From Modestobacter lapidis (GTDB lineage Bacteria > Actinomycetota > Actinomycetes > Mycobacteriales > Geodermatophilaceae), in NCBI GenBank assembly GCA_019779905.1, contig JABAKE010000005.1:62001-126000 (forward strand): DNA of 64,000 bases, written 5' to 3'. Below the pieces are notes generated by a model. That model saw only the letters and a program-made list of their open reading frames with translations. It had not been told where the DNA came from and did no database searches. Shown here piece after piece: positions 43,485 through 63,425 of the stretch; position 1 is the first letter of the stretch; the number at the start of each line of letters is the position of its first letter. The position numbers were made by a program, and so were the translations under genes.

Positions 43485-44990
43485 ATGAGCGTGCGACGGG
43501 TGATGGGCACCGAGCTCGAGTACGGGATCTCCGTGCCGGGCCAGCCGGGGGCGAACCCGACGACGTTGTCGAGCCAGGTGGTCAACGCCTGGTCGGTGGC
43601 CGAGGCGCCGACCAGGCGGCGGCCGCGGTGGGACTTCGAGGAGGAGTCGCCGCTGCGCGACGCCCGCGGGTTTGACCTGTCGCCCGCCACCGCGCTGGAT
43701 CACAACGACGCCGACGAGGACGCCGGGATGGCCAACGTCATCCTCACCAACGGCGCCCGGCTGTACGTCGACCACGCCCACCCGGAGTACTCGACGCCGG
43801 AGGTGACCAGCCCCCGCGACATCGTGCTGTGGGACAAGGCCGGCGAGCTGGTGATGGCCGAGGCGTCCCGCCGGGCCGCGCGCATCCCGGGCACCCGGCC
43901 CATCCAGCTCTACAAGAACAACACCGACGGCAAGGGCGCCTCCTACGGCGCGCACGAGAACTACCTGATGGACCGCCGGACACCGTTCATCGACATCATC
44001 CGCGGCCTCGTCCCGTTCTTCGTCACCCGGCAGGTGTTCGCCGGCGCCGGCCGCGTCGGCATCGGCCCGGAGGGCCGCCGGCAGGGCTTCCAGATCTCCC
44101 AGCGGGCCGACTTCTTCGAGGTCGAGGTGGGCCTGGAGACGACGCTCAAGCGGCCGATCATCAACACCCGGGACGAGCCGCACGCCGACGCGGACAAGTA
44201 CCGCCGGCTGCACGTGATCATCGGCGACGCCAACCTCGCCGAGCTGTCCACGTACCTCAAGGTCGGGACGACGTCGCTCGTCCTGGCCATGATCGAGGCC
44301 CGGGCGCTGGGCAAGGATCTCACCATCGAGGACCCGGTCGCCGAACTGCAGGCGATCAGCCACGATCCGACGCTGACCCACCGGGTGCGGATGCGCGACG
44401 GGCGACGGCTCACCGGGCTGGAGGTGCAGCGGGAGTACCTCGCCCGGGCCGAACGGTTCGTCGCGGACACCGGCGACACCGACGAGCAGACCCACGACGT
44501 GCTGCGCCGCTGGGCCGAGGTGCTCGAGGACCTCTCGATCGACCCGATGCGCTGTGCCGACCGGCTGGACTGGCCGGCGAAGCTGCGGCTGCTGGAGGGC
44601 TACCGCACGCGCGACGGGCTGGGCTGGGGCGATTCCCGGCTGCACCTGGTCGACCTGCAGTACTCCGACGTCCGCCAGGACAAGGGGCTGTACCACCGGC
44701 TGGTGGCCCGCGGGTCGATGCAGCGGCTGCTCACCGACGAGGAGGTCACCCGGGCGATGACCTCCCCACCGTCGGACACCCGCGCCTACTTCCGCGGCGA
44801 GTGCCTGCGCCGGTACCCCGCCCAGGTCGCCGCCGCCTCCTGGGACTCCGTGGTGTTCGACCTCGGCCGGGAGAACCTGGTGCGGATCCCGACGATGGAG
44901 CCGCTGCGCGGTACCCGGGAGCACGTCGGCATGCTGTTCGAGTCGACGTCGACGGCGCAGGAGCTGGTGGACACCATCACCGGAGGGTGA
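43485..44990 (+). CDS. dop: Pup deamidase/depupylase
   Basis: A 501-residue carboxylate-amine-ligase-like enzyme that deamidates the C-terminal Gln of Pup to Glu and removes Pup from substrates. The N-terminal [11 protein letters not shown] holds the metal-binding glutamate. Residues about 50-78 contain the Dop-specific loop ([17 protein letters not shown]), absent from PafA. The catalytic aspartate equivalent is D96 in [33 protein letters not shown] and [13 protein letters not shown] are nucleotide-site strands. The gene precedes pup by about 90 bases; activation of this Pup is needed since it ends in Gln. Confidence 0.97.
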
Positions 44991-60944: not shown

Positions 60945-61410
60945 GCCGGCGGGCGGGGGTACGCCGCCATCGGCGCCCGACGTCGACCGGACACTGCTGA
61001 GCGCACTGGCCCGGGACGGTCGGGCCAGCTACACCGACCTCGCCGAGCGGGTCGGCCTGTCGGTGTCGGCGGTGCACCAGCGGGTCCGCCGGCTGGAGCA
61101 ACGCGGCCTGATCACCGGGTACTCGGCCAAGGTCGATGCCAGGGCCGTCGGCCTGCCGCTGACCGCCTTCGTGTCGATCACGCCGATCGACGTCTCCCAG
61201 GCCGACGACGCCCCCGCCCGGCTCGCCCACCTGCCGGCCATCGAGGCCTGTCACTCGGTGGCCGGCGTCGAGAGCTACGTGCTCAAGGTCCGGGTGGCCT
61301 CACCCGACGCGCTGGAGGCGCTGCTGGGCGAGATCCGCCGGGTCGCCGACGTGACCACCCGCACGACCGTGGTGCTGTCCACGTTCTACGAGGACCGCCC
61401 GCCGGTCTGA
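60919..61410 (+). CDS. Lrp/AsnC-family regulator
   Basis: A 163-residue DNA-binding protein. The HTH reads SALARDGRASYTDLAERVGL followed by VSAVHQRVRRLEQRGLITGY. The C-terminal RAM ligand-binding domain shows LTAFVSITPI and VAGVESYVLKVRVAS. Members sense amino acids and regulate amino acid metabolism. The GTG start lies 26 bases inside the M24 peptidase gene, which implies coupling; the first 20 residues are disordered. Regulation of the peptidase is plausible but unproven. Confidence 0.9.
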   Translation: MGSSNSPAEPAGGGTPPSAPDVDRTLLSALARDGRASYTDLAERVGLSVSAVHQRVRRLEQRGLITGYSAKVDARAVGLPLTAFVSITPIDVSQADDAPARLAHLPAIEACHSVAGVESYVLKVRVASPDALEALLGEIRRVADVTTRTTVVLSTFYEDRPPV

Positions 61411-61418
61411 GGAAGGTG

Positions 61419-61523
61419 GAAGGACCCCGCTGCCTCCCACGCTTCGCAGGCTCAGCGCGGGCCCCTGCAGCAGGGCCTGACCCCACCACTCGCGAGCTCG
61501 CGGTGGGACCCTGCGAGGGGGCC
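61419..61523. repeat. Tandem palindromic intergenic repeats
   Basis: One full copy (61419-61474, AAGGACCCCGCTGCCTCCCA to GGGCCCCTGCAGCAGGGCC) is followed directly by a shorter one (61475-61523, centre CACTCGCGAGCTCGCGGTG). It begins a few bases after the Lrp stop and fills most of the gap to the radical SAM gene. Confidence 0.7.
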
Positions 61524-61560
61524 ACTGGACTCCTGCTCGAACGTGTGTTCGGATGAGGGC

Positions 61561-62463
61561 ATGCGGTGGGGCGCGCAGCGGCTGGACTTCGAGGAGCCGT
61601 CGACGCTGCCCGGGGTGCCCGATGTCCGCGGGCTGCTGCGCAGCGTGCAGGTGCCCGAGTTCCCCGGCCTGACCCTGCACGAGGTGCGCTGCAAGAGCGC
61701 GCTGAACGCCGTCCCGAAGAGCTCGGCGATGCCGTTCGGCCACACGATCAACACGTTCCGGGGCTGCAGTCATACGTGCGTGTATTGCGTAGGAGGAGAC
61801 ACCAACGTCCTGACGGCGGATGGCCGTCAGGTGTGGATCGCCGACCTGCGCGTCGGCGACCGGATCATCGGCACCGAGAGACGGGGCAGATACCGGTACT
61901 ACGTCGAGACCGAGGTGCTGGCGCACTGGTCAACGGTCAAACCGGCGCACCGTTTGCGGCTGGCCGACGGCACCGCGATCGTGGCCAGCGGCGACCACCG
62001 CTTCCTGACCGGCCGTGGGTGGAAGCACGTGATGGGAACGGGCTCCGGGGCCGGGCAGCGCCCGCACCTGACGCTGCACGACGAGCTGCTGGGGTTCGGC
62101 CGCTCCTCGTCCACGCCGGCGGCCTGCGCCGACTACCGCCGCGGCTACCTGACGGGCATGGTGCGCGGTGATGGTCACCTGGCGACCTACCGGTACGCCC
62201 GGGCCGGCCGGGCGCACGGCGATGTGCACCGGCGATGGAGGACCGGCGCCGGGCGAACGGCCTCGCCACGGTCCGGCTGCGCGGCGGGCTGGTCGAGCAC
62301 CTCCGCTTCATCCACCTGGTCGACCCGGCGATCCGCCGGAAGTGTGGAGTGCAGGGAACCGCCATCAAGTCCTCGGCGGACCTCCGCGTCACTGCGGTCG
62401 AGGACATCGGGACCGAGATGCCCATGTTCGACATCGCCACCGGTACCGGCGACTTCATCGTGA
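61561..62463 (+). pseudogene. Rv2578c-type radical SAM protein, N-terminal part with intein start
   Basis: Residues 1-75 (RWGAQRLDFEEPSTLPG...NTFRGCSHTCVY) are the N-terminal part of a Rv2578c-type radical SAM protein. At Cys76 an intein begins: CVGGDTNVLTADGRQVW is splicing block A, GDHRFLTGRGW block B with the conserved His, and GYLTGMVRGDGH a LAGLIDADG-type endonuclease motif. Near 62235 the reading shifts to another frame, so the last part of this translation (Ser/Arg-rich to 62463) is spurious. The ATG at 61561 is the family start. See the C-terminal part at 62235. The gene is either broken or made as two chains. Confidence 0.8.
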
Positions 62464-62483
62464 ACGGCGTGGTCAGCCACAAC
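61786..62483 (+). other. Intein coding region, frameshifted
   Basis: The intein spans from Cys1 (61786-61788) to Asn (62481-62483), followed by Cys+1 (62484). Its 698 bases are not a multiple of three, so it crosses two frames. The C-terminal blocks F and G are MFDIATGTGDFIV and NGVVSHN. The second LAGLIDADG motif and most of the endonuclease are absent, so it looks like an intein that lost its homing domain by an out-of-frame deletion near 62235. Confidence 0.8.
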
Positions 62484-63425
62484 TGCTTCGCCCGGGGCAC
62501 GCACGAGTGGCTGGAGCTCGACAGCGGCGCCGAATTCGACCAGCAGATCGTGGTCAAGACCAACCTCGTCGAGGTGCTGCGCCGCGAGCTGGGCCGTCCG
62601 TCCTGGAAGCGCGAGCACGTCGCGCCGGGCACCAACACCGACCCGTACCAGCGGGCCGAGGGTAGGTACCGGCTGATGCCCGGGGTCATCGACGCGCTGG
62701 CCCGGTCGGGCACGCGGTTCTCCATCCTCACCAAGGGCACGCTGGCCCGCCGCGATCTGCCCCTGCTGACCGCGGCGGCCCTGGACGTGCCGATCGGCAT
62801 GGGCGTCTCGATGGCCATCGGGGACGACGGCCTGCACGCCGCGCTGGACCCCGGCGCCCCCACCCCCCGCGCCCGGCTGGAGCTGGTCCGCGCCATCACC
62901 GACGCCGGGCTGCCCTGCGGGGTGTTCCTCGCCCCGGTGCTGCCCGGGCTGACCGACCGCCTCGACCACCTGGAGGCGGCGATCGACGCGATCGCCGAGG
63001 CCGGCGCCACCGGGGTCACCGTGCTGGCGCTGCACCTGCGCCCCGGCGCCCGCGAGTGGTTCACCAGCTGGCTGGTCCGCGAGCACCCTGCGCTGGTCAG
63101 CCGGTACCGGGCGCTCTACGGGCGCGACGCGTACGTGCCGGCCGAGCACCGCAGCTGGCTGGCCCGCCGGGTCGCCCCGATCCTGGCCCGGCACGGGCTG
63201 GACCGGCAACGGGGCGGTACCGCCCGGGGCATGACCGGGAGCAGTGCAGCCGGGAGCAGTGCAGCCGGGAGCAGTGCAGCCGGGAACGGCCAGGTCGCGG
63301 CAGGGGCGGCGACCGGGCTGCCCGGGGGCGAATCGGCCGGCCTCCCGCCGGGCAGCCTGCCCGGCATCCGTCCGGCCCCGGCCGGCTCACGAGCCTGCTC
63401 GGCCGAGCAGCTCACCCTCTGCTGA
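62235..63425 (+). pseudogene. Rv2578c-type radical SAM protein, C-terminal part with intein end
   Basis: In the second frame, residues from EDRRRANGLATVRLRGG to NGVVSHN are the C-terminal intein half (about 83 residues). From Cys the host protein resumes: CFARGTHEWLELDSG, then the radical SAM body with GTNTDPYQRAEG and SILTKGTLARRDL. Joining VY and CFARGTH would rebuild the CxxxCxxC cluster site, so the intein sits at its third cysteine. An ATG at 62235 could start this part, though no ribosome site is seen. The end carries three 15-base tandem repeats. Without splicing this protein lacks two of its three cluster cysteines. Confidence 0.8.
63235..63286 (+). repeat. 15-base tandem repeat in the radical SAM gene
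   Basis: CCGGGAGCAGTGCAG occurs three times without change from 63235 to 63279, followed by a partial unit. It encodes Ala/Gly/Ser repeats (GSSAA) in a non-conserved linker near the end of the protein. Copy number is likely variable between strains. Confidence 0.85.

Follow-up and report, generated by a model that had tools for sequence, protein, structure and literature searches.

The window analysed here, a stretch of 64,000 nucleotides from Modestobacter lapidis, covers bases 62001-126000 of a contig of 258,853 bases, which is part of a draft genome of 4.78 Mb in 383 contigs. It contains an Rv2578c-type radical SAM gene (61561-63425) with an intein inserted directly before its third cluster cysteine. 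The intein comprises 698 bases (61786-62483), from the C1 codon at 61786 to the terminal Asn at 62481-62483, and is followed by Cys+1 at 62484-62486. Its two halves belong to different open reading frames, with the following features:

61543-62463, forward strand: N-half open reading frame from the ORF list, with an ATG at 61561 and an alternative GTG start at 61543
62235-63425, forward strand: C-half open reading frame from the ORF list
61561-61785, forward strand: 75 codons, starting with the ATG at 61561, that encode the N-extein of the radical SAM protein (Rv2578c type), including the first two cysteines of CxxxCxxC
61786-62232, forward strand: 149 codons of the intein read in the N frame, comprising its N part with C1, blocks A and B and the first LAGLIDADG-like motif
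62232-62236, forward strand: deletion junction, at which 337 bases of the relatives' endonuclease region are absent
62233-62463, forward strand: out-of-frame tail of the N-half reading frame, 76 codons and a stop
62235-62483, forward strand: 83 codons of the intein read in the C frame, comprising its C part with blocks F and G and the terminal His-Asn, and opened by an ATG on the junction
62484-63425, forward strand: C-extein in the C frame, from Cys+1 (the third cluster cysteine) to the stop

The identity of the gene is reflected in the match of both reading frames to opposite ends of the NCBIfam profile NF038136, of which they cover positions 1-216 and 262-574 of 574, with scores of 283.6 bits for the N half and 508.6 bits for the C half. 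Each half on its own scores below the curated cut-off of 700 bits, which applies to the whole protein, and the exteins and the intein do not share a single frame, as the halves are read in different frames. With respect to the intein, we take C1, the block B histidine, the final His-Asn and Cys+1 to be the features of class 1, and by sequence they are present as CVGGDT, SGDH and SHN followed by Cys; the names of splicing blocks A, B, F and G and the term LAGLIDADG for motifs of the endonuclease region are likewise our assignments. An intein-free relative (P0028) reads straight through CIYCFAR at the insertion site, and excision would thus restore CxxxCxxC. The C frame is open from 62172 (417 amino acids) and the N frame extends to 62463, resulting in an overlap of 292 bases, and the third-position GC content amounts to 0.91 for the N frame upstream of the break and to 0.94 for the C frame downstream of it. 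These properties bear out the anatomy described in the original prediction, which had placed the intein of 698 bases at the cluster cysteine of a radical SAM gene, with an end at Asn before Cys+1, an excision that rebuilds the cluster motif, halves in frames overlapping at 62172-62463 and an ATG at 62235 opening the C half. A 15-base tandem repeat with 3.4 perfect copies, located at 63235-63285 of the window, codes for repeats of GSSAA close to the C-terminal end of the C half.

The cause of the frame break, which had been missed in the original prediction, is one 337-bp deletion at about 62232-62236, by which most of the homing-endonuclease region is gone. When the window is aligned to the DNA of four relatives (G014, G008, G021 and G009), the alignment is interrupted at a single point, where each relative has exactly 337 extra bases, and the aligned parts to the left and right of it have no net gap. 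The distance between the two cysteines that flank the intein is 1,032 bases for full-length inteins of the family (1,029 in one) compared to 695 here, and as 337 cannot be divided by three, the deletion places the C half out of frame. In relatives, the lost part holds a second LAGLIDADG-like motif (RGFLAGIVDAEGS in L009); the break is within the endonuclease region, and blocks A, B, F and G are all kept. In an alignment of the junction with 14 relatives, agreement on the left ends at 62231 or 62232 and resumes on the right at 62236 or 62238; the bases at 62233 and 62235 fit neither flank in any of the 14, and the base at 62234 fits the right side in five. In net terms, 337 bases were lost, and the deletion was perhaps slightly larger and accompanied by a few filler bases. 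The ATG at 62235 is on the junction, at a place where the 14 relatives have a CTG, CTC or CG codon, and was created by the junction itself.

At a threshold of E <= 1e-10, a search for the C-half protein was positive for 102 of the 112 family genomes; among the 96 genomes with a completeness of at least 90% and a contamination of at most 5%, the number is 93. Within the genus it is present in 20 of 23 genomes, with the three misses being at most 80% complete and two of them showing a weak partial match, and a search of the M. lapidis genome found no second copy of the gene. The intein is carried by 12 of the 20 genus genomes with the gene. It is absent in G003, G015 and G011, which are closest to the window by the neighbouring peptidase gene, and its presence thus does not track kinship in the genus.

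Our comparison set comprises 48 inteins of the family, including that of the window, and one from outside the family. A 49th family intein (G074) is cut by contig ends, and the counts leave out L009-L015, which come from the same genomes as seven of the G entries, and the incomplete L102. Within the 48, 31 are of full length, corresponding to 345 residues with a LAGLIDADG-type endonuclease region, one is broken and contains 1,055 bases (G105) and 16 have partly lost the endonuclease region. Fourteen of these 16 are open throughout, and in a fifteenth (G110, L096) the endonuclease deletion is in frame, and the gene is split in the N part of the intein by another frame change, located at about residue 40 of the intein, with the C-side reading frame corresponding to P0026, a protein named Geodermatophilus sabuli. 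The frame was therefore kept by 15 of 16 endonuclease deletions and broken solely by that of the window, which, against an expectation of one in three, corresponds to p = 8e-7 if the deletions are independent. Judged by these sequences, the reading frame of this gene is evidently under selection, with the window as the exception. Across the loci L023-L113, at least a dozen partial endonuclease losses at one intein site, with 411-816 bases left between the cysteines, constitute a good natural series of mini-inteins.

Broken genes are found for three of the 48 inteins (the window, G105 and G110) and for one intein-free copy (G080, L115), which has a frame change in the C-extein. In the Geodermatophilus obscurus copy (G105, L114, P0135), an in-frame duplication of 21 bases in the endonuclease part is accompanied by two frame changes, one near block F and the other in the C-extein. 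These other broken copies indicate that the gene is lost now and then. The original prediction had suggested looking for the same break in relatives; it was encountered in none of the 47 other family inteins and was not recognised in two protein searches (best 120 of 7,890 and best 120 of 918, with 20 sequences inspected). A look-alike C half, P0056, was rejected as its gene (apparently that of G074) runs across two contig ends; further look-alikes are P0021, which is on a contig of 3,238 bp, and P0066.

The tendency of the family to keep the frame, the draft state of the genome with its 383 contigs and the junction bases that fit neither flank would be in line with an assembly or sequencing error, such that the strain would have an in-frame endonuclease deletion and a working mini-intein whose junction was misread. 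We consider such an error unlikely, since the position of the frame change coincides exactly with the deletion junction and there is no net gap elsewhere, and the junction is far from the contig ends and contains no run of four identical bases. A scan of the window for frame breaks flagged 23 match pairs, six of which concern this gene (three sense and three antisense), whereas of the remaining 17, several reflect gene boundaries or frames on the antisense strand, according to third-position GC and the ORF lists. Within the 42.8 kb of the window that were matched, and with the flagged pairs resolved in part, the lesion is the sole break on the sense strand that was found at one and the same place in the comparisons with all three relatives. 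An error would also leave unexpected the excess of changes at invariant sites described below, which should not accumulate in a working gene. The same halves are found in the database proteins P0001, which is the C half itself and stands for two member sequences, and P0121 on a contig of 578,507 bp; this contig probably represents a scaffold of the same genome and thus does not independently confirm the break.

The state of selection on the gene was investigated at sites that are invariant in 15 other genomes of the genus. At such sites the exteins have changed in 12 of 245 cases, compared to 18 of 1,347 in three neighbouring control genes (pooled p = 0.0009), distributed as 2/264 in the peptidase gene, 7/393 in the gene at 43485 and 9/690 in the helicase gene. 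When applied to the exteins of 15 genus relatives, the same test gave a mean of 0.5% and at most 2.1% (5/238). The excess is found on both sides of the intein (3/56 and 9/189), and in the control genes two relatives are sometimes above the window (as in the helicase gene of G003 with 20/701). Within the intein, the last 35 residues are changed at 4 of 28 genus-invariant sites, compared to 0-1 in nine relatives, whereas the first 100 residues show no excess (3/58, relatives 0-7). On the scale of the family, the N part of the intein is unchanged at all 19 sites that are conserved in at least 95% of family inteins, blocks F and G are changed at 2 of 19, as in two other loci, and the count over 195 conserved sites is 7 for the window and 6 for the intact relative L101, in a comparison that also left out L114 and L115.

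The pairwise mean of dN/dS is 0.216 for the window gene, whereas 19 genus members have values of 0.117-0.177, and the corresponding figures for dN to 12 other members of the family are 0.153 and 0.125-0.138. When dN to the rest of the genus is expressed as a ratio to that of the nearest relatives, the exteins give 1.12, compared to 1.06 and 1.09 for two control genes, and against three relatives the ratio is 1.39-1.40 compared to 1.05-1.34 in five control genes, after three of eight control reading frames with dN/dS >1 had been set aside as wrong-frame. Because this lineage evolves somewhat fast in general, as seen in the control genes, relaxed selection as a conclusion from mean rates was given up in favour of the invariant-site test. 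With whole-gene rates barely above these controls, either the break is young or its effect is small. Both frames are still free of stops and retain a normal codon GC, and the pattern at invariant sites, as far as it can be read from the DNA, fits a gene that was released from selection rather recently.

The 292 bases shared by the two frames would in principle allow a single -1 slip, either ribosomal or transcriptional, to generate some one-chain precursor that splices in cis. Such recoding appears highly improbable, as there is neither an X-XXY-YYZ heptamer in the N frame nor a run of four in the overlap between 62172 and 62463, and the overlap itself arose by deletion.

Trans-splicing would, by contrast, not require the frames to be joined. 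The chains encoded by 61561-62463 and 62235-63425 might be made from one mRNA and associate to splice into an active enzyme, which is in line with the retention of every splicing block, a break that is confined to the endonuclease region, a start codon made by the junction and exteins that both still look largely constrained. According to a review (PMC7765530), a break in the coding region of a mini-intein may give rise to a split intein. Despite these features, we regard a nascent split intein as doubtful and no better placed than a sequencing error. The predicted anti-Shine-Dalgarno energy of the ATG at 62235 (-4.7 kcal/mol) is about the mean of 420 window ATGs (-4.46), although the computed value for the helicase gene's own start is only -2.9 kcal/mol, which makes the test of starts a weak one. 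Two further starts of the C frame, GTG 62349 (-6.8 kcal/mol) and ATG 62418 (-6.3 kcal/mol), are above average, and the database gene call begins the C half at 62418 (P0001), but a chain from this position would retain just 22 intein residues. In addition, the N chain would carry 76 junk residues, blocks F and G are affected by the changes at 4 of 28 genus-invariant sites, and no such split exists among the 47 other family inteins. A search of 61400-62500 revealed no sigma-70-like promoter or terminator, which carries little weight in this GC-rich group. The stricter version, in which the single deletion would in one step have turned a cis-splicing into a split intein by removing the endonuclease, parting the frames and creating the start of the C half, with the overlapping reading frames now splicing in trans, is if anything slightly more doubtful still. 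If the two chains do splice, the locus would have caught the one-step origin of a split intein in the act.

We thus favour, with good though not full confidence, the interpretation of the locus as a fairly young pseudogene that was made by loss of the intein's homing endonuclease. The gene has a frame-interrupting lesion here and intact copies in relatives. In relatives, this radical SAM gene contains an intein of 345 residues with a LAGLIDADG-type endonuclease region; in the window, the 337-bp deletion has taken the larger part of that region, including the second motif, and spared the splicing blocks. Translation from the gene's own start would now yield the N-extein, 149 intein residues and 76 junk residues before a stop, and the C half is presumably not usefully made, which would account for the loss of function. 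As the N piece contains two cluster cysteines and the C piece one, neither alone would build the 4Fe-4S site and the enzyme would be lost, and as no piece has all three, any activity would need ligation. We regard the frame-breaking deletion as real and probably recent; it has most likely killed the host gene, and the gene is probably dead. Of the two outcomes that the original prediction had left side by side, a split intein and a dead enzyme, the latter is therefore favoured and trans-splicing has found no support; this leaning is based on the sole frame-breaking deletion among 16, the excess of changes at invariant sites, the missing recoding site and the average start context at 62235.

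Collectively, the comparison shows how endonuclease loss from inteins is filtered in one gene family, where nearly every deletion compared is in frame, and the recent deletion of the window constitutes an exception that was most likely fatal to its host gene. The event is of an ordinary kind, with a slight possibility that it represents something much more remarkable. Searches of the open-licence literature returned no report on this intein, on Rv2578c with an intein or on inteins in Geodermatophil taxa; those combining split intein, frameshift, homing endonuclease and deletion returned a phage study only, and those on inteins with radical SAM or with pseudogene and frameshift contained no title on this gene among the matches listed. 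A Streptomyces paper assigns an ortholog of the host gene to the Rv2578c family, notes its annotation as putative SplB in several strains and describes it as a phage integrase target (PMC12924846).

The relation of the locus to known systems is one of partial likeness. Natural split inteins, such as cyanobacterial DnaE and NEQ528 of Nanoarchaeum, are encoded by separate genes with their own expression. The locus resembles them in having its break in the endonuclease region, with blocks A and B on one side and F and G on the other, but differs in consisting of two overlapping reading frames, the second of which shows no sign of being made; the C part matches NEQ528 weakly and without significance (E = 0.89). 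With the intein-containing Rv2578c radical SAM proteins of NF038136, it shares the host gene, the intein site and the extein and intein sequence at both ends, whereas profile positions 217-261 are absent and the two ends are in different frames. The Geodermatophilus obscurus copy likewise has an intein-bearing gene with its C-extein out of frame, but it keeps the endonuclease region, and its frame changes near block F and in the C-extein. Closest in kind to the lesion itself are the in-frame mini-inteins of Modestobacter excelsi (L012/L034) and L036, which occupy the same site of the same gene and have also partly lost the endonuclease region, but in which, unlike in the window, the deletions keep the frame and leave the gene open throughout.
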